Below are positions 1-27,134 of a stretch of 64,000 nucleotides of DNA, in pieces. Where the stretch lies: assembly GCF_014201835.1 (NCBI RefSeq), contig NZ_JACHFH010000009.1, forward strand, positions 1-64,000, read 5' to 3'. Within the stretch, counting starts at the first letter, position 1. Each line of letters starts with the position of its first letter. A program made the translations under genes and the position numbers. The notes beneath the pieces were generated by a model, which did not search any database, was not told where the DNA came from, and saw nothing but the letters and a program-made list of their open reading frames with translations. This DNA comes from Pectinatus brassicae. GTDB lineage: Bacteria > Bacillota > Negativicutes > Selenomonadales > Selenomonadaceae.

Positions 1-87
1 TATACCCGGGCAAGAGACAATTCAAGAGAGCAATTCCAGCCTGCCATGGACAAAAGCCGTGGGCAAGGCATGGTCAAAGGAAGTTAG

Positions 88-471
88 CGGCTACATTCAA
101 GAGCTTTAGGTAACTCTGAACAATTAAAGATAAACAAAAGTAAAGGACATAGTGATAAAGGTTTCGGTTTTTCAACAAGCACAAACAAAAATCTAACAGA
201 AAACAGAAATATTGAAGCTATAGTTTTACCAGGCGAACTACAAGAATTGCAAGTGGGATGTGCTTATGTCAAAATAGGAGCTTATCCAATCGCCAAAATA
301 CAGTTCAGTAATAATCATTTACCCGATATTGCCCCGTATTATTTGCCATTTTTTAATAAAATAGCTACCGATGAAGAAATAAATGCAGCTTCTACTAATA
401 CGTCAAATGTCATAGTCACAGAAAAAAAGGGGACAGACAAAGAATCCCAAACACCTATTTTTAAATTTTAA
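88..471 (+). pseudogene. C-terminal fragment of a TraD/TrwB-like type IV coupling protein
   Basis: The frame is open from base 88 to the stop at 469-471 and reads through a region typical of the end of VirD4/TraD coupling ATPases: an ALGNSEQ segment, an R-N-I-E-A motif, then VLPGELQELQ and AYVKIGAYPIAKI. No Walker motifs remain and there is no credible start; a TAG at 85-87 closes the frame upstream. A different frame (2-109) encodes about 35 residues ending in GYIQEL that I do not recognise. The fragment directly precedes the relaxase gene, as coupling proteins often do in MOBF systems. It could be the tail of a gene broken by frameshift or a deletion scar. Confidence is moderate for the family and good for it being incomplete. 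Confidence 0.5.
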
Positions 472-501
472 GCTATTTAAGTAAAGGCAGGCTATAAAAT
501 C

Positions 502-3084
502 ATGCTAAGTATAGATAATATTGGGTTAAATCAAGCTAGTACGTACTACAGTGAAGACGATTATTATACGCGCAATTTAAATAAAGATGACGAATGGCAA
601 GGAAATTTAACACAGAAATATAGCAACGAAAAAGGTTTTTCACCAAAGGATTTCGACAATGCTCTAAAATCAATGCCAAATTCTAAACGTGCAGCTTACG
701 ATTTAACTTTTTCAGCACCTAAGTCAGTTTCTATAGCAATGATATTAGATAATGAGAAAAAAGCAGATATGATACAAGCACATAATAAAGCTGTAACAGA
801 TACTATTAAAGAAATAGAAGCTAATGAGATCGAAGCTCGTATAACTAAAAACAGAATTACTGAACGTGTGTTAACAGGAAAAATAGCTGTTGCTAAATTT
901 AATCATTTTGTTAGTCGTGAACAAGATATGCAGCTGCACACACATTGTGTTGTACTTAATCGAACTGAATACAATGGAAAAGAATACGCTATATCAAATG
1001 AAAATCTTTATACTAATAAGATTCTATATGGTCAACTCTATCGCAATCGTCTAGCTAAAAACCTACAAGACATTGGCTATTCTTGTCATATAACCGATAC
1101 CGAAAAAGGATTTTTTGAGTTAGATAATATTGAACAGGACTGGATTGATAATTTTTCTACTCGTCGACAACAAATCAATGAAAAATTAAAGGAATGGGGC
1201 ACAAATAGTGCCCTTGCTTCCGATAAAGCAACTTTACTCACACGCCAAGCAAAAATTAATAAAGATTTCTCTTTACTGGAAAAGTCCTGGCAAAAACAAA
1301 TAAATGGTAAAATAAGCATTGATAAAAATCCACTGAAAATAAAAATAAGCACTTCTCAAAAAAATAATGCTTTTAATCAAGCCGTTGATAGTATTGCTAA
1401 TCAAAAATTTGCTTTTACAAGAAAAGAACTTGAGCGTGCCGTACTTGCAGAAGGTTGTACTTTGGGCATGAACAGAAGTGATTTTACTACCCATTTTGAA
1501 AACTCTGATCTGATCAACTTAGGTACACAAAAAAATATAGCTGATACTACAACTTTCTATACCACTGCTAATAATATTGCCGTAGAAGAAGAAATAATGA
1601 GCAATATCACCAACACTTCTAAACTACAAAATATAACAGATGCTAAAAAAGATTTAGATAATATTATTAGTCAACAGCATCTTTCATTAACCAGTGAACA
1701 AAAACAAGCTATCTTAAATATAGCTAACAGCAATATGCAATTTAGCGCTGTACAGGGTCTTGCCGGCACAGGAAAAACATATATGTTAAATTCTACTAGA
1801 GAATTGTTTGAAAAACATGGCTATACAGTTAGCGGCATGGCATTTACTGGTAAAGCAGCTGAAGGACTAGGAACAGCTGGTATTAAAAGTACCACAATAC
1901 ACAGTTTTCTTAATCATTTAGAAAGAACTACTAACATCTCTATAGAATCGGATCTAAAACAAACTTGGGACTTCTCAAATCTGAAGCCTACAGGCAAAGA
2001 ACTATGGGTTATTGATGAGGCAGGCACTTTAAATAATAATTTATTTTTATCTGTACAAAAAGCTGCTATAGCAAAAAATGCTAAGATCTTATTGGTCGGT
2101 GACTATAATCAATTTAATCCCATTGGACCAGGTAATGCTTATCAATCTTTAGTTCAATCTGGTAAAATTTCTACATCATATTTGACTGATATAAGGCGGC
2201 AATCAGATGAAATACTTTTAAATGCTGTAAAAGAATCTGTAAGCGGTGATATAAGTAAAAGTATCTCCCTACTAGCCAAAAACATTAAAGAAATCAAATC
2301 ACCTATTACACGTTTTAAGTTAATAACTAAAGAATATACTTCATTATCATTGCCTGAACAAGACACTACTATTGTCCTAACTGCTAAAAACACTGAACGT
2401 AATACATTAAACGAATCAATAAGAGACGCCTTAATAAGAAGCGGACAAATTGATATAAATAATCAAAAAGGATTTGCTGTTATATCTAATAAAAATGAAA
2501 AAACAATCAAAAGTTTTGCACCTGGTGACAAAATTATTTTTACCAAAAATAATCATAAACTAAATATCATGAATGGACAATTAGGAAAGATAACTGCTAT
2601 AAATAACAATTTTATGACTATTTCCAGCAATAGCAAATCCTTTAATATTGATATGAATAACTATCAACATCTTGATTATGGTTATTGTTTTACTGGCTAT
2701 AAATCTCAAGGTATGACTGTAAACAAAGCCATAGTTAATATAAATAGTAAAAACACTACTTTAAATTCTCGTAATGCTTATTATGTTAATATCAGTCGAG
2801 CAAAAAATGGTATAAGTATTTATACTGATAATATAAGCAACATTAGTAATCAAATTAAACAGTGGCAAAAGAAAATCACTTCAGATGATTTCTTGATCAA
2901 ACAATCCACTAGCTTGCGTAATAAAAACATATCTAAAAACTCAATTAAACACAGCATACTTAAAAAGCCCTTAAATGCCGCTGAATTCAGCATAAATTCA
3001 ATAAAAGAAGCCTCACAAAAATTAAACACCAGTAAAACTATTAATTCTATTGCTACTAAAATACAGTCTCATATACATTTATAA
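502..3084 (+). CDS. MOBF conjugative relaxase-helicase (TrwC/TraI family)
   Basis: Nicks one strand at oriT, stays covalently attached through a tyrosine, and unwinds the strand for transfer. The N-terminus carries the tyrosine cluster (YY at 15-16 and 21-22) and the signature YDLTFSAPKSVS. The metal-binding motif QLHTHCVVLN is near residues 143-152. The helicase half has Walker A GLAGTGKT near residue 420, Walker B WVIDEAGTL near 505, and a late motif GYCFTGYKSQGMT typical of RecD-like helicases. At 860 aa it is somewhat shorter than TrwC (about 970). The upstream fragment looks like a coupling protein, and an integrase follows. MOBF relaxases are typical of proteobacterial plasmids, so presence here fits a diderm Firmicute host. 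The gene is much more AT-rich than the core genes nearby. Confidence 0.93.
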   Translation: MLSIDNIGLNQASTYYSEDDYYTRNLNKDDEWQGNLTQKYSNEKGFSPKDFDNALKSMPNSKRAAYDLTFSAPKSVSIAMILDNEKKADMIQAHNKAVTDTIKEIEANEIEARITKNRITERVLTGKIAVAKFNHFVSREQDMQLHTHCVVLNRTEYNGKEYAISNENLYTNKILYGQLYRNRLAKNLQDIGYSCHITDTEKGFFELDNIEQDWIDNFSTRRQQINEKLKEWGTNSALASDKATLLTRQAKINKDFSLLEKSWQKQINGKISIDKNPLKIKISTSQKNNAFNQAVDSIANQKFAFTRKELERAVLAEGCTLGMNRSDFTTHFENSDLINLGTQKNIADTTTFYTTANNIAVEEEIMSNITNTSKLQNITDAKKDLDNIISQQHLSLTSEQKQAILNIANSNMQFSAVQGLAGTGKTYMLNSTRELFEKHGYTVSGMAFTGKAAEGLGTAGIKSTTIHSFLNHLERTTNISIESDLKQTWDFSNLKPTGKELWVIDEAGTLNNNLFLSVQKAAIAKNAKILLVGDYNQFNPIGPGNAYQSLVQSGKISTSYLTDIRRQSDEILLNAVKESVSGDISKSISLLAKNIKEIKSPITRFKLITKEYTSLSLPEQDTTIVLTAKNTERNTLNESIRDALIRSGQIDINNQKGFAVISNKNEKTIKSFAPGDKIIFTKNNHKLNIMNGQLGKITAINNNFMTISSNSKSFNIDMNNYQHLDYGYCFTGYKSQGMTVNKAIVNINSKNTTLNSRNAYYVNISRAKNGISIYTDNISNISNQIKQWQKKITSDDFLIKQSTSLRNKNISKNSIKHSILKKPLNAAEFSINSIKEASQKLNTSKTINSIATKIQSHIHL

Positions 3085-3213
3085 AGTAATCCGGTTTTTA
3101 TAAAAATAGTGCTGTTTTGTTTACAAACAAGGATCTAGACTTCGTCCTATTTTCAATAGTCCTTGTTTGTAAACTTCAACAACACTTTATCAATTATCAA
3201 CCGGAACACTTTT
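3083..3213. repeat. Imperfect inverted repeat of about 50-bp arms between relaxase and integrase
   Basis: The inner arms GTTTACAAACAAGGA (3119-3133) and its exact reverse complement (3160-3174) flank 26 bases. Outside them the arms keep matching with small differences: TCCGGTT near 3090 pairs with AACCGGA near 3200, and the flanking AAAGT with ACTTT. The loop contains smaller inverted repeats (AGGA/TCCT and CTATT/AATAG). It is not followed by a T-run on the plus strand immediately after the inner stem, so a simple terminator is less likely. An oriT or recombination/replication site is possible, but no nic site is recognised. Confidence 0.7.
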
Positions 3214-3264
3214 TTCTATTCTCTACAAAGTTCCCCATAAATAATAATTAGAAGGTGATTTTAT

Positions 3265-4455
3265 ATGCCTGTACAACAACGAGGAAAAAACAGCTGGCAA
3301 ATAACTATAAATAATGGCAGCGATCCACAAGGCAGACGTATCCGAATAACTAAAACGATACGTGCAGAAAATAAAACAGAAGCTTTAAAATATGAAAAAA
3401 TCTTAGCTGGTGAAATAGCTAAGAAAAATTATGTTAATCCACAGTCTATGACTTTAAATAGCTTTTATTCTTACTGGAAAGATAATTACTTAAAAGCACA
3501 GAAAAAACGTGATAAAACAGTATTAAGTTATGATGATTTATTTCGTCGTATTGATGCTGCTTTAGGTCATATGCCTATAGATAAATTACAGCCTAAGCAT
3601 ATCCTTGCTTTTTTAGATCAATTACGAACATGTCCCCGTTTAGATAATCGTCCTGGCGGACTATCTGACAACTCTATACGCAAGCACTATACTTTATTGC
3701 ATTTAATATTAAAAAAGGCTACACAGTGGCAATTCATTTTAAATAACCCTGCCGATGCTGTCGATCCCCCAAAATTCAAATATCGCAATACTAAAAAGAT
3801 ACTATCACCTAAAGAATTAGGTATATTCTTGATTGCTTTACGGCAGGAAAATCTAAAGCATCGACTTTGGGCTATGCTTTGTCTATCATTAGGACTGCGT
3901 CGTGGAGAAGCTATCGCATTGCAATGGAAACATGTCAATTTCACTGAAAAGAAATTAACTATCTGTCAAACAGTACAATATATTCCCCGTAAAGGCTTAA
4001 GCTTAAAACCTCCTAAAACAGATAGCTCTAACAGAGTTTTAAGTTTATCTAACGAATTGATTGATTTATTATCTGTTTATAAAAAAATAAAACATAAAGA
4101 ACAGATTACACTCGCTAATAAATGGTGTGGTAATCCTGATTTTAATGAAAACTTCATATTCACAACATGGGATGGCAATATATCACATCCAGATAGTATG
4201 AATATTTGGTTACGTAAATTTGCTAAGAAAAATAATTTGCCAGCAATTAGCCCTCACAGTCTTAGACATATGGCAGCTACTTATCTCTTACATGCTGGTG
4301 CAGATATTACAACTGTTGCAGGCAAGTTAGGTCATTCTAACGGCACTATAACTCAAACAGTCTACGCCCATTTATTACAAAATGCTGAACAAGAAACCGT
4401 TGCTTTGATGAATAATATTCTATCTTCTAGTATAGAAAAAGCTAATAAAATATAA
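3265..4455 (+). CDS. int: Tyrosine site-specific integrase
   Basis: Catalyses integration and excision of the element. The N-terminus (to about residue 55) resembles the arm-binding domain of Tn916-type integrases, followed by a core-binding SAM-like domain (about 65-170). The catalytic set is visible: R212 in GLRRGEA, H331 and R334 in HSLRH, H357 in LGHSNG and nucleophile Y367 in TVYAHL. A ribosome binding site AGAAGGTGA precedes the ATG. Full length (396 aa) and all key residues are intact, so it is probably active. It sits 2.2 kb from the tRNA-Lys, with one cargo gene between, instead of directly at the att site. Confidence 0.95.
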   Translation: MPVQQRGKNSWQITINNGSDPQGRRIRITKTIRAENKTEALKYEKILAGEIAKKNYVNPQSMTLNSFYSYWKDNYLKAQKKRDKTVLSYDDLFRRIDAALGHMPIDKLQPKHILAFLDQLRTCPRLDNRPGGLSDNSIRKHYTLLHLILKKATQWQFILNNPADAVDPPKFKYRNTKKILSPKELGIFLIALRQENLKHRLWAMLCLSLGLRRGEAIALQWKHVNFTEKKLTICQTVQYIPRKGLSLKPPKTDSSNRVLSLSNELIDLLSVYKKIKHKEQITLANKWCGNPDFNENFIFTTWDGNISHPDSMNIWLRKFAKKNNLPAISPHSLRHMAATYLLHAGADITTVAGKLGHSNGTITQTVYAHLLQNAEQETVALMNNILSSSIEKANKI

Positions 4456-4464
4456 AATATTAAA

Positions 4465-6540
4465 TTATTTTACAACTAGCATTTTTAACATATCCAAACC
4501 ATCTAAAATCACATTATACATCCCTAATGTAATTTTATTATATAGATTTTTTTCAATTTTTTGAGATTCTTGTGATTCATTTAAAATATTAAGTATGTCT
4601 TGACGTATATTTTTACTTAAGGAAACATCTTTTACGAATTCCTCAGCATAATAATATTTAATATTTGGATGTACATTATTAATATTCTCTGCTTTCTTAT
4701 CTAATAGCCAATAGTGTAATTCATCACAAAATGGTTTATATTTTTCAGTAGTTTCATTTTCATTTATATTATAATTATTTCCCCACATAGTAAAATAGAA
4801 TGATTTTTTACATTCAATAATAATATGTGAATATTTTATTTTATTAGAGACATCTTTATCTATACAAATATCTGGTATACTTCCATTTGGCAATACAGCA
4901 TGATAGTGTATTTTTCCATATTTTTCCCTAGCAATTTGTTTACAAATAACTTCCCATTTATTTCCCAAATAAAAGAATAAATCACGTTTTTTACCAACTA
5001 TTTTATTCAATTCTAACTGGCTTTTACAAAAACTTTCCAAGTAGAAATTTAAATTATTAAAGTCTACTAAATCAATAATTAATTCATTAGTCTTTAAAAG
5101 GTAGTAAATTAATTTTTTTAAAATAGGGATTGCTCTAATATCGCCATAACTAAGCAGTAAAAACAAACCACATAGAGGACGTGTTAGATTTCTTGTAAAT
5201 TTTTCAGTAGGTAACTTTCCCATCCAGTCATCATTTCCTATATATTCTAGTAAATGTTCTCTATTTATTTCTCCCCTATTATAGTCAAGACAATATTTTA
5301 AATTCACCACATCATTAAAATATATTTTATTATAAGTACTTTTAAAAACAATAAATTCCATTAAATTAATTAACTCTTGCTGCCATAAGTCATTATTAAT
5401 AAAAAAACCATCTAAAATAAATTTTAATTTTTTTAAAAAATTAGCTCTTTCTTCTTTCTCAAGAAAAGTAATATATGCAAATATCAAATTTACGCTAAAT
5501 GGAAATAATCGCCTTGACAATAATGTTATTTTTTCGTGAAATTCAGTTATCAAATTCTCATCAGAAGCTTCATTTAAACAAATAATATACTCATTAAATA
5601 TGTTTTTATATTCTCTATAATAATTAAAATCAGGTATTATTTCCCCTGCATTTATCATATAAATAATTTCACATAAAACATCAACTTTTTCTAAAACATT
5701 GTCACATCTCTTGTATCTATTGATCAACATTTCTGGGGTTTTTAATGTAACTTCCGACTCGTTAGTAAAACATAAAACTTTAGATACTCTAGACCTATCT
5801 GTAATGCATCCTTTTTCACTGGCCTTTTTTAACAAATAACACCAGTATGAGTGATACGTTAATGTTTCTACTTTTTTAAATAAAGCTAAAACAGCTTTAT
5901 AATTAAATAACATTTTATCTTCAATCGGAAAATCTATAATTAATTCGATCTCTTCATCTGTTAATGGTTTATAAATATTTTCTCTATTCTTATTTTTTAA
6001 TATATATGATCTTATAATACGAGTAAAATCCTGTAATGGATAATTATAGCTTCCTAATATATTTTTACTGATGTAACTATAGTTAAACCTTAACGTTATA
6101 TCCCTTTCATTTAAAATGCTAGTATATTCTTCTGTAAACTTATATAAAGCATCTTTTCTGATATTTCTTGCGTTTATAGAAATCTCAGAAATATATTTAA
6201 TAATTTGGTCTAAATTTCTATCATTTACTACATATTTAATCAAAGAATTGGTTATGTGATTACTAGTGTCATTTAATATTCCCAAATGTGCTTTCTCAAA
6301 CATATTATAATACTTTATGTAATATGTATTAAACCAATGAAATAATTCAATTATTTTATTATCACCTAATTTAGATACTATATTAATAATACTACTTGTT
6401 AATCGTGTATTGTCACTATAAAAGTTATCATTCAATACCGGCATTATTGAAGCACCATATTCAGCAAACAATCTTATTCCTTTTTCTCTTTCATGTTTGA
6501 CCTGAGAAGCAAGTAAATTTAAAATATAGTCATTATTCAT
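4465..6540 (-). CDS. HEAT-like repeat protein with C-terminal PD-(D/E)XK nuclease; cargo gene
   Basis: No named family recognised. The N-terminal 70 residues look like HEAT/ARM helices (VKHEREKGIRLFAEYG, then a SSIINIVSKLGD helix), and most of the following 450 residues are predicted helical and rich in I, N, K and Y. The C-terminus contains a PD-(D/E)XK nuclease core: a helix GNKWEVICKQIAREKYG, then P556-D557, then IIIE576-C-K578, with about 19 residues between D557 and E576, the usual spacing. The ATG follows AGGAGATATTATC. The gene is far richer in A+T than its chromosomal neighbours, runs opposite to the integrase and ends 10 bases after it. It is the last gene before the tRNA-Lys att site, a position often occupied by defence or other cargo genes. 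A restriction or anti-phage role is an inference; other DNA repair roles are possible. Confidence 0.72.
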   Translation of the reverse strand: MNNDYILNLLASQVKHEREKGIRLFAEYGASIMPVLNDNFYSDNTRLTSSIINIVSKLGDNKIIELFHWFNTYYIKYYNMFEKAHLGILNDTSNHITNSLIKYVVNDRNLDQIIKYISEISINARNIRKDALYKFTEEYTSILNERDITLRFNYSYISKNILGSYNYPLQDFTRIIRSYILKNKNRENIYKPLTDEEIELIIDFPIEDKMLFNYKAVLALFKKVETLTYHSYWCYLLKKASEKGCITDRSRVSKVLCFTNESEVTLKTPEMLINRYKRCDNVLEKVDVLCEIIYMINAGEIIPDFNYYREYKNIFNEYIICLNEASDENLITEFHEKITLLSRRLFPFSVNLIFAYITFLEKEERANFLKKLKFILDGFFINNDLWQQELINLMEFIVFKSTYNKIYFNDVVNLKYCLDYNRGEINREHLLEYIGNDDWMGKLPTEKFTRNLTRPLCGLFLLLSYGDIRAIPILKKLIYYLLKTNELIIDLVDFNNLNFYLESFCKSQLELNKIVGKKRDLFFYLGNKWEVICKQIAREKYGKIHYHAVLPNGSIPDICIDKDVSNKIKYSHIIIECKKSFYFTMWGNNYNINENETTEKYKPFCDELHYWLLDKKAENINNVHPNIKYYYAEEFVKDVSLSKNIRQDILNILNESQESQKIEKNLYNKITLGMYNVILDGLDMLKMLVVK

Positions 6541-6597
6541 GATAATATCTCCTAGTTATTAAGTATATAAATTTAATTAAGCTATTTCTATACAAGC

Positions 6598-6621
6598 TGA
6601 CATCATTTTTGACATCATTTT
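6598..6621. repeat. Perfect tandem direct repeat, 2 x 12 bp, possible integrase arm site
   Basis: TGACATCATTTT occurs twice back to back, 45-68 bases from the tRNA 3' end, in the stretch between the cargo gene start and the tRNA. Arm-type sites of Tn916/lambda-like integrases are short direct repeats near each element end. No other copy was noticed near the integrase gene. Confidence 0.5.
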
Positions 6622-6626
6622 ACAAC

Positions 6627-6656
6627 AAAAAAGACTTCCCGAATACGAGAAGCCTT
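6627..6656 (-). terminator. Terminator downstream of tRNA-Lys
   Basis: On the minus strand an 11-bp stem (two G-U pairs), loop TATT, is followed by TTTTTTG. It lies 10 bases past the tRNA CCA. If the element ends at the tRNA, this terminator is element-borne and restores transcription termination after insertion. Confidence 0.8.
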
Positions 6657-6665
6657 GAATTTACA

Positions 6666-6741
6666 TGGTGACCCACCGGGGAATCGAACCCCGAACCTGC
6701 TGATTAAGAGTCAGATGCTCTACCAATTGAGCTAGTGAGTC
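6666..6741 (-). tRNA. tRNA-Lys (anticodon CTT), CCA encoded
   Basis: Cloverleaf is complete: 7-bp acceptor stem GACTCAC/GTGGGTC, T-loop TTCGATT, anticodon loop CTCTTAA. The encoded 3' CCA is at 6666-6668. Its 3' end borders the integrated element and is the likely attachment site. Confidence 0.95.
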
Positions 6742-24909: not shown

Positions 24910-26388
24910 TTACAGTAGTTTCATTATTATTTTTGCCAATTTTGTTATCGCAATGCCAAATTCCTCACAGTTAAGATAGGCATATGATATACGCAAGGAG
25001 TTATTGGGCTTAAAATCATAAACATCTCCCGGTGCTATCAAAATATTATTTTGTACCGCCATAAAAAACAATTTTTCAATTGGAATATATTTATTAAAGG
25101 TCAGCCATATATAAAAGCCCCCCTGTGGTTTATTCCATACGGCAATATCACCAAATAATTTTTTTATGAACGCTAAGGCATTATTACAGCGTTTTTGCAG
25201 CTCGACGCATAAATTTGATAAATGTTTTTCATATAAACCACTGTTAATAAATTCTGCCAAAATTAATTGTGAAATCGAACTGGTTCCATAATCCATCTGC
25301 ATTTTTATATCACCCAGTCGCTGCACAATAGCTTCCGTTGCTACCAGCCAGCCCACCCTAAGACCCGGTGCCAGTGTTTTAGATGCTGTTCCTAAATATA
25401 TTACTAAATCATTTCTGTCTAATGATTTTAGTGACGGCAGCATTACTTTTTTAAAATTCAGTTCCTGATAGGCAGCATCCTCTATAATCGGCAATTGCCG
25501 TTCCTGACAAAATTTTATCAATTCCTGTCTGCGTGACAAGGACATATTAATTCCTGTTGGATTGTGATTGGTTGGTATCGTATATAATATCGGAAATTTT
25601 TTCTCATTAATATCTTTAACAGTTGATGGTATCTGCCAATATTTAATCCCCTGCTTATCAAGGCCTATCCCTTGCAGTTTCATCCCGGCCGACTGGAATA
25701 CTTCCAACGATTTTAGGTACGTCGGCATTTCCATATAAACAGCGGCTTTTTCCTGCATAAGCCCCACCGATATCAATTGCAACCCCTGCAGTGATCCTGA
25801 TGTTATTAATATATTATCTGCTGTTATATTTTTCATTCCTTGCTTATGCAAATGATCTGCCAATGCCTGTCGTAATTGTATGGAGCCTAACGTTTCCAAA
25901 TAACCAAATTTAATATGTTTTTTACTGATTTTACTCAAAACTTTATCCCACATTTTATAAGGAAATAAGTCAGGCGCAATTTCTCCTGTTCCCAACCGCA
26001 ATATATTAGGTTTAAATTCTAAGCGGTTTATTTCCTGGATAATATGATTATTAGCCTTAAAAGCACCTGAATTTATATATTTCCCCCAATCCAATGATGA
26101 GGTTAGCATTACCGACCACGTGTTAGCCTCAACCTTCGTGCCTAAACGACCATAGCTCTTAATAATTCCATACGAAGCCAGCTCCTCCATAGCCGTAACC
26201 ACCGTACTTCTATTGACGCCAAAAATTTCGGCTAATTTGCGCTGCGGTGGCAATTTTGTCCCTATACTCCATTCACCACAGGCAATTTTTTGACAAACGA
26301 AATCCACAATCTGCTGATATAATGGCTTAATCGTGTATTCCTTAGCTTTCCAGCTCACCGGTAAATCAAGTTTATTTTTACTGTTCAT
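24910..26388 (-). CDS. MocR-type GntR regulator with aminotransferase domain
   Basis: A GntR winged helix (residues about 15-85, with KLPPQRKLAEIFGVNRSTV) fused to a class I aminotransferase fold (about 120-492). The PLP lysine lies in LGTASKTLAPGLRVGW and the ring-stacking region in DAAYQE. MocR proteins usually sense PLP-bound metabolites and activate a neighbouring gene while repressing themselves. It is divergent from a LysE exporter, and three TTTGGTTGG repeats lie in the shared intergenic region. ATG follows AAAGGAAATACA. Confidence 0.9.
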   Translation of the reverse strand: MNSKNKLDLPVSWKAKEYTIKPLYQQIVDFVCQKIACGEWSIGTKLPPQRKLAEIFGVNRSTVVTAMEELASYGIIKSYGRLGTKVEANTWSVMLTSSLDWGKYINSGAFKANNHIIQEINRLEFKPNILRLGTGEIAPDLFPYKMWDKVLSKISKKHIKFGYLETLGSIQLRQALADHLHKQGMKNITADNILITSGSLQGLQLISVGLMQEKAAVYMEMPTYLKSLEVFQSAGMKLQGIGLDKQGIKYWQIPSTVKDINEKKFPILYTIPTNHNPTGINMSLSRRQELIKFCQERQLPIIEDAAYQELNFKKVMLPSLKSLDRNDLVIYLGTASKTLAPGLRVGWLVATEAIVQRLGDIKMQMDYGTSSISQLILAEFINSGLYEKHLSNLCVELQKRCNNALAFIKKLFGDIAVWNKPQGGFYIWLTFNKYIPIEKLFFMAVQNNILIAPGDVYDFKPNNSLRISYAYLNCEEFGIAITKLAKIIMKLL

Positions 26389-26397
26389 TGTATTTCC

Positions 26398-26493
26398 TTT
26401 GGTTGGTTTTAAATATTTTTTTGGTTGGATATTTATAAGTTTAATTATACTATAATATTGCTATAAATTAAATATTAACCTGTTTTTGGTTGG
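26398..26493. promoter_or_regulatory. Direct-repeat operator between mocR and lysE
   Basis: TTTGGTTGG occurs at 26398-26406, 26420-26428 and 26485-26493. The first two are 22 bp apart, two helical turns, as expected for a MocR dimer. The second sits just upstream of the lysE -10 box TATAAT (26451-26456), the third overlaps the lysE ribosome binding region, and the first overlaps the mocR leader. Confidence 0.7.
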
Positions 26494-26504
26494 AAAGGAA
26501 CACT

Positions 26505-27134
26505 ATGTATTATTTTCTTGAAGGGTTACTTATCGGGCTGGCTTATCTAGCTCCCATCGGTATGCAAAATTTATATGTAATAAATACTGCCATAAATCAC
26601 AATCGCCACCGTGCCATAATTTCGGCATTAATAGTTATTTTTTTTGATATAACGTTATCCCTGTCGTGTTTTTTTGGCATTGGTACCATGATAGATTATT
26701 TTTCCGCCCTAAAATTAATCATGCTTAGCCTAGGCAGTATTTTACTCATTTATATCGGCTATAAATTAATACAGCACCCTGCACTAAATACGAATACTGA
26801 CACTGTTCCACTCTCATTTACGCAAACTATCTATAAGTCGTGTGTTGTCACCTGGTGCAATCCCCAGGCCATTGTTGACGGTACGATTATGTTAGGAGCT
26901 TTTCATGCTATTTTCAATAACAATCAAGCCATCCTTTTTCTCAGTGGTATCATCAGCGCCTCATTCATTTGGTTTATTGGGTTATCTTTTCTTGTTTCCA
27001 CTTTCAAGCACAAAATAAGCCGTACTATTTTTGCCAGAATAAATCTAGCCTGCGGCATTGTTATTATTTTTTATGGACTTAAATTATTTTATGAATTAAG
27101 CAGCACCTTTATTATCAATAAAAATATATTATAA
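26505..27134 (+). CDS. LysE/ArgO family amino acid exporter
   Basis: About six membrane segments in 209 aa; the N-terminus (YFLEGLLIGLAYLAPIGMQNLYVINTAI) carries the P-I-G-x-Q-N motif of the family, and the CVVTWCNPQAIVDGTIMLGAF segment carries N-P motif residues. The ATG 26505 has AAAGGA 6 bases upstream; the longer TTG start is less likely. Probably controlled by the divergent MocR protein. Substrate (lysine, arginine or other) not readable from sequence. Confidence 0.88.
   Translation: MYYFLEGLLIGLAYLAPIGMQNLYVINTAINHNRHRAIISALIVIFFDITLSLSCFFGIGTMIDYFSALKLIMLSLGSILLIYIGYKLIQHPALNTNTDTVPLSFTQTIYKSCVVTWCNPQAIVDGTIMLGAFHAIFNNNQAILFLSGIISASFIWFIGLSFLVSTFKHKISRTIFARINLACGIVIIFYGLKLFYELSSTFIINKNIL

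Follow-up and report, generated by a model that had tools for sequence, protein, structure and literature searches.

A gene of 691 codons, located in Pectinatus brassicae between the integrase and the tRNA att site of an integrated element and called here the cargo gene, was found to encode a protein covered by none of the family libraries searched. The protein contains, in the order E / PD / (D/E)xK, the residues of the PD-(D/E)XK superfamily. We give about an even chance to the reading that it is a single-gene defence effector, in which a helical sensor is joined to a PD-(D/E)XK nuclease; among the explanations considered, this one accounts best for the position, architecture and company of the gene. 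The general kind, a defence nuclease borne by a mobile element, is already known. Coordinates refer to the window, the whole stretch of 64,000 nucleotides that was analysed, unless another contig is named. The cargo gene and its parts are as follows.

4465..6540, minus strand: cargo gene, 691 aa (open frame; family-library searches)
5041..6540, minus strand: N-terminal region (residues 1-500), mostly helical by prediction, a possible helical-repeat sensor (model, pLDDT 36.5)
4573..5013, minus strand: residues 510-656, candidate PD-(D/E)XK domain (residue order, shuffles, comparison with the relative)
4951-4953, minus strand: candidate catalytic codon, E530
4873-4875, minus strand: codon of the candidate motif, P556
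4870-4872, minus strand: candidate catalytic codon, D557
4813-4815, minus strand: candidate catalytic codon, E576
4807-4809, minus strand: candidate catalytic codon, K578

The cargo gene within an integrated element

The nature of the reading frame was tested by its length, composition and start. In the ORF listing the frame is open over all 691 codons, and the chance of an open frame of this length at the same base composition is about 3e-33. The G+C content at the three codon positions (30.5/23.4/17.5%) is coding-like, and a ribosome-binding-like AGGAG was detected just 5' of the ATG. Because of its length, its codon-position composition and the AGGAG before its ATG, the frame is very probably a real gene; a random open frame was ruled out by the length chance and the coding-like composition. 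The overall G+C content of the cargo gene was 23.8%, lower than in the genes of the relaxase and integrase (31.5%) and in the flanking chromosome on the right side (36.3%). The earlier note had described a single AT-rich gene next to an integrase and a tRNA att site, and this description was confirmed in each respect. The following features of the element were identified in the window and on a second contig, C63 (L012, 4570 bp), which carries its other end.

178..471, plus strand: C-terminal remnant of the coupling protein, TrwB/VirD4-like (similarity over 178-381)
502..3084, plus strand: MobF (TrwC/TraI-type) relaxase-helicase (TrwC match, 1.1e-58)
3265..4455, plus strand: tyrosine integrase of the element (profile matches)
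6658..6711, no strand: 54-bp att repeat, the same sequence as C63 (L012) 328-381
6666..6741, minus strand: tRNA-Lys (CTT), into which the element is integrated and which is still intact
C63 (L012) 2975-4492: remainder of the coupling protein (TrwB, 1.2e-27)
L012 1043-1753: XRE-type regulator (matched by regulators of this type in PDB, best 1.4e-6)

The 54-bp repeat consists of the 3' part of the tRNA-Lys(CTT) gene and eight bases beyond it, and the exact match stops at its borders on both sides. The sister species G004 has the flank known from C63 and the repeat directly joined to an intact tRNA-Lys gene (292 bp at 99% identity), which represents the unoccupied site. On this finding we rejected the possibility that the cargo gene belongs to host DNA adjoining the element. 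In addition to the regulator, L012 contains ORFs that were labelled by reading as excisionase-like (79 aa), replication-like (98 aa) and MobC-like (100 aa). Mating-pore genes were not recognised by reading the ORFs of L012 and of positions 1-6711 of the window, between which the coupling-protein gene holds an assembly gap. The element thus combines an integrase, an att repeat, an unoccupied site and a relaxase without a full set of conjugation genes, as is characteristic of an integrative mobilizable element (IME). From the att repeat, the unoccupied site and the element genes, the cargo gene is therefore placed, at the level of sequence, inside an IME of about 11 kb, the middle of which is unassembled. 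It is the last gene of the element, between the integrase and att and convergent with the integrase; with the repeat, the G004 site, the integrase and the MobF relaxase, the proposed location at the att end was established.

The coupling-protein gene is broken where the two contigs end, and window 1-125 as well as L012 4493-4570 are unrelated to it. Because of this interruption, and because window 2-96 recurs exactly in contig C43, a repeat element is likely to be inserted within the coupling-protein gene. As to the integrase, two related enzymes (35% and 33% identity), perhaps belonging to other elements, are encoded in contig C13 of the same genome, at 25465-26598 and 367-1512. The four best integrase relatives in other genomes led to different elements.

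The same tRNA gene was also inspected in the genus. An integrase fragment lies beside the tRNA-Lys(CTT) counterpart of G001, and a VirB4-like gene (TrwK, 3.2e-23) together with other ORFs lies some 3 kb from the tRNA-Lys gene of G002. As judged from the sequences compared, tRNA-Lys(CTT) is an integration spot common to several elements in the genus. This sharing of the site by others speaks for a different role of the cargo, in which it would exclude competing mobile elements, such as incoming plasmids or rivals at tRNA-Lys, rather than phages. We regard this role as unlikely; it carries the same nuclease assumption as the effector reading.

Nuclease-like residues, fold and relatives

All the residues named in the earlier note (E530, P556, D557, E576, C577 and K578) are present with the right numbering, and the segment GNKWEVICKQIA, which includes E530, occupies residues 526-537. 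The ExK residues are followed by a block, YKPFCDELHYWLLDK...HPNIKYYYAEEF, that is partly conserved in G772, the genome with the sole relative found. The frequency of such an arrangement was estimated with 20000 shuffles of the cargo protein, using patterns that were all written after the sequence had been seen. The bare pattern PD-x(10-30)-[DE]xK appeared in 3089 shuffles (about 15%), the pattern with hydrophobic strands in 255, and the full pattern, to which the preceding G..[FYW]E helix had been added, in three, this pattern too having been written after the sequence was seen; a looser fourth pattern, lacking the G and the P, appeared in 1805. Taken alone, the PD/ExK motif is thus a weak indication. 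Assignment of the cargo protein to the PD-(D/E)XK nucleases is plausible.

Family searches with the whole cargo protein gave no family in Pfam, PADLOC and PHROGs at E up to 1, and no sequence match in PDB at E up to 10; a match to GapS6a in NCBIfam (E 0.34) was taken as chance. When the protein was searched in pieces, REP_ORF2 was the sole Pfam family (E 0.079 with one piece and 0.14 with another that overlaps it) and was judged a chance match, as were the PDB matches (best E 0.045 and 1.2). The pieces gave no match in PADLOC, none of whose anti-phage models matches the cargo. No PD-(D/E)XK family profile matched the whole protein (Pfam, NCBIfam, PHROGs and PADLOC) or its pieces (Pfam and PADLOC). 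Weak matches are hidden by the filters of HMMER, and very remote kinship of the cargo protein may escape such searches.

The N-terminal part had been described as HEAT-like. HEAT/ARM profiles gave no match in the cargo protein, whole or in pieces, and at E 1e-3 the genome containing the window had no match to HEAT_2 (PF13646) at all. Because no HEAT profile matched, membership in this family is not supported, and what is left of the description is a helical character, weakly indicated by the model. The AlphaFold predictions made without relatives were unusable, with a mean pLDDT of 36.5 for the whole protein and 42.1 for residues 510-656. In these poor single-sequence models, the secondary structure was mostly helix up to residue 541, followed by strands and helices, which weakly suggests a helical N-terminal part joined to a mixed C-terminal domain. 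A defence protein combining HEAT repeats with PD-(D/E)XK was not found in a literature search, in which subscription papers were thinly covered and sources were represented in part.

We then determined the distribution of the cargo protein. Among 278 genomes drawn from the phylum, three (G710, G777 and G772) passed the threshold of 0.01, and G772 contains the sole true relative (E 3.4e-12); the matches in G710 and G777 were due to chance, the genes being those for PriA and DAHP synthase, respectively. The relative in G772 is split in two pieces, located at two contig ends. The N-terminal piece (109 aa, 29%, 46.6 bits) matches cargo residues 10-102 and the C-terminal piece (59 aa, 46%, 56.6 bits) matches residues 596-653, whereas no more than 26.2 bits was reached in 2000 shuffles. 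The two pieces appear to be parts of one gene, as judged by the way they are oriented where the contigs end. Since both termini are common to the cargo and G772, the cargo protein is, by this comparison, a member of a rare family and not a lone frame. The region of the cargo with PD and ExK falls in the assembly gap between the two contigs of G772. In G772, the N-terminal frame runs for 138 aa before it ends, and the one that follows (114 aa) is without significant similarity to the cargo; because of these two observations, the G772 copy may be broken or built otherwise.

The surroundings of this relative were also analysed. An integrase was not recognised there by reading, and the best second place of a possible att repeat was 38 bp at 92%. 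Some 1 kb beyond the C-terminal piece, a Dam-like methyltransferase is encoded, with a score (96 bits) that stays under the curated cut-off.

True relatives were absent from 60 relatives of the genome, 380 genomes of the class and 398 of the phylum, three sets that overlap and include the genome itself. A match in G014 (39% over 62 residues, E 7.8e-4) was attributed to chance, since two stops lie inside it. Within the sensitivity reached in these and the following contig searches, plasmids and phages, searched by tblastn with the cargo, gave no true relative, and the G772 pieces gave weak matches there; an ORF of a Helicobacter cinaedi plasmid (E 6) was set aside, as it reads, by eye, like a relaxase. 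In the viral_contigs collection, no relative was detected with the whole protein, three pieces, the two-row alignment A2 and two DNA patterns. In genome_contigs, none was detected with six exact 8-residue patterns, the form of search applied there, and none was present among the 80 loci listed in a scan with the relaxase alignment, in which the matches listed were mostly remote MobF relaxases of other phyla.

The block common to the cargo and G772 reads YKPxCxELHxWxLxK / HPxIKYYxAExF and is located C-terminal of the supposed active site. This location, together with the high frequency of the bare motif in shuffles and the lack of any profile match, would fit a protein that is not a nuclease, namely a helical-repeat protein of regulatory or scaffold role in which the PD and ExK residues are coincidental. 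We consider such a protein quite improbable; the order and spacing of helix-E, PD and ExK with their hydrophobic flanks, rare in shuffles even if the pattern was chosen afterwards, argue against it.

Defence genes in related elements

The company of related relaxases was then examined. At a cut-off of E 1e-100 or better, a close relaxase was found in 11 of the 380 class genomes, the window's own included, and the neighbourhoods in the ten others were read as far as the contigs and the stretches retrieved from them reached. Weaker relaxase relatives (G030, G208, G222, G201, G258 and a second copy in G272) were left out of the counts. Among the ten, the ends of the element were demonstrated in two, G366 and G068. 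The G366 IME is bounded by a 57-bp repeat (96.5%) at tRNA-Arg. Its slot between integrase and tRNA is occupied by the PADLOC-catalogued pair DitA (596 bits) and DitB (323 bits), ordered and oriented like the cargo of the window; at the other end, behind the regulator, it carries a type III methyltransferase and restriction enzyme. The G068 IME is located at tRNA-Arg with an exact att repeat of 47 bp, and behind its regulator a restriction enzyme of type ISP/IIG is encoded; its slot between integrase and tRNA-Arg att contains no ORF of at least 60 aa.

In G027, PDC-M60A/B/C and DRT2 follow the relaxase. This PDC-M60 candidate system and the adjoining DRT2 reverse transcriptase occupy L060 10355-17545, and the former consists of a protein of 1178 aa and two response-regulator-like proteins, one with a fused nucleoside-phosphorylase domain. 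In G243, the relaxase is adjoined by SpbK, a PtuA-like ATPase and a restriction enzyme of type I. AbiEii (269 bits) and PDC-S59 (91 bits) were detected in G272, on a contig that may be a plasmid and has an ORF judged ParA-like by eye, and a Fic protein (88.7 bits) was detected in G038. PADLOC gave no match for the proteins scanned from G129 (one) and G318 (two); the neighbourhood of G253 was read and stands outside the PADLOC scan. A protein of 361 aa with a CxxC...H motif follows the relaxase in G035 (L064 10377-11462) and has no match in Pfam, PADLOC and NCBIfam at E 0.01.

Altogether, 13 of 20 proteins, a small sample hand-picked by eye from nine neighbourhoods, gave PADLOC matches of at least 100 bits, and such a match near the relaxase was found in five of the ten other genomes. 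As chromosomal controls we used the first ten non-overlapping ORFs of at least 200 aa to the right of the element; none reached 100 bits (best 51.4 bits), and four of ten passed the loose threshold of 1e-3. The assignment of the cargo itself to defence, made in the earlier note, was strengthened by this comparison, in particular by DitAB in the equal slot of G366, as an association.

Alternatively, the cargo could serve the element itself, in keeping with its place next to att and its transcription towards the integrase. It would then aid excision, transfer or persistence, as a nuclease or as an accessory protein that binds DNA, for instance in resolution of the Holliday-junction type or in the killing of cells that lose the element, and the PD...ECK signature occurs in Hjc-type junction resolvases as well. 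This service is difficult to reconcile with the content of the comparable slot in G366 and G068; because the slot differs in these two, the cargo is not a core part of the element. Among ORFs of at least 60 aa, moreover, no possible antitoxin is present besides the cargo between integrase and tRNA. We hold a function for the element to be distinctly improbable.

Under the preferred reading, that of a defence effector, the cargo most likely acts against competing mobile DNA, either phage or plasmid. We infer for the protein a nuclease fold, metal-dependent cutting, sensing and defence. The long helical N-terminal part would sense a protein or a DNA structure of the invader and would keep the C-terminal PD-(D/E)XK domain inactive until then; after sensing, D557, E576 and K578 with E530 would bind metal and cut DNA. 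The target may be the DNA of the invader only, resulting in restriction, or all DNA, resulting in abortive infection. More tentatively, and with somewhat more doubt than belief, the cargo could be the founder of a new family of single-gene defence nucleases, characterized by a helical-repeat sensor, a divergent PD-(D/E)XK domain and the conserved block, and carried as an exchangeable cassette between integrase and att in a family of MobF elements that target tRNA genes and would shuttle defence systems among relatives of Selenomonas.

If the effector reading is correct, a single-gene defence family missed by the catalogues searched would be added, and the integrase-to-att slot of MobF elements would be a place to seek further ones. 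Even if the cargo proves to be otherwise, the element family looks like a defence-gene carrier, the genes in or beside its members including DitAB, type I, III and ISP restriction, DRT2, SpbK and PDC-M60.

Comparison with known systems

The element resembles the IMEs with MobF relaxases in its tyrosine integrase, excisionase-like ORF (by reading), relaxase, TrwB-like coupling protein and tRNA att repeat; it differs in that, in the window's copy, the coupling-protein gene is broken, with repeated sequence at the contig break. The pair DitAB (DitA/DitB of PADLOC) of the G366 IME is like the cargo in its slot and in the way it is ordered and oriented with respect to the integrase and the tRNA att. 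DitAB, however, consists of two genes, and the cargo gave no match by blastp against the G366 pair at 1e-3. In Mrr/Hjc-type PD-(D/E)XK enzymes, the family motifs are a helix glutamate, PD and E-C-K in this order, and the same order is found in the cargo, whereas a significant profile match was not obtained.

The nuclease family of Shedu bears the name DUF4263, to which the cargo has no match because the whole protein lacks any Pfam match. As to membership, the cargo matches neither the nuclease domain of SduA nor the Shedu model of PADLOC, and it differs from Shedu in the length of its N-terminal part, which is apparently mostly helical and matches no library. Shedu (SduA) is an anti-phage nuclease of the PD-(D/E)XK type, encoded by a single gene and variable in its N-terminal domains; its N-terminal clamp binds DNA ends and its PD-(D/E)XK domain cuts (PMC12904381). 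The likeness is in the single gene and in the C-terminal PD-(D/E)XK-type residues of the cargo, which follow a large N-terminal part that would determine specificity; Shedu may be taken, by this analogy, as the nearest working model for the cargo.
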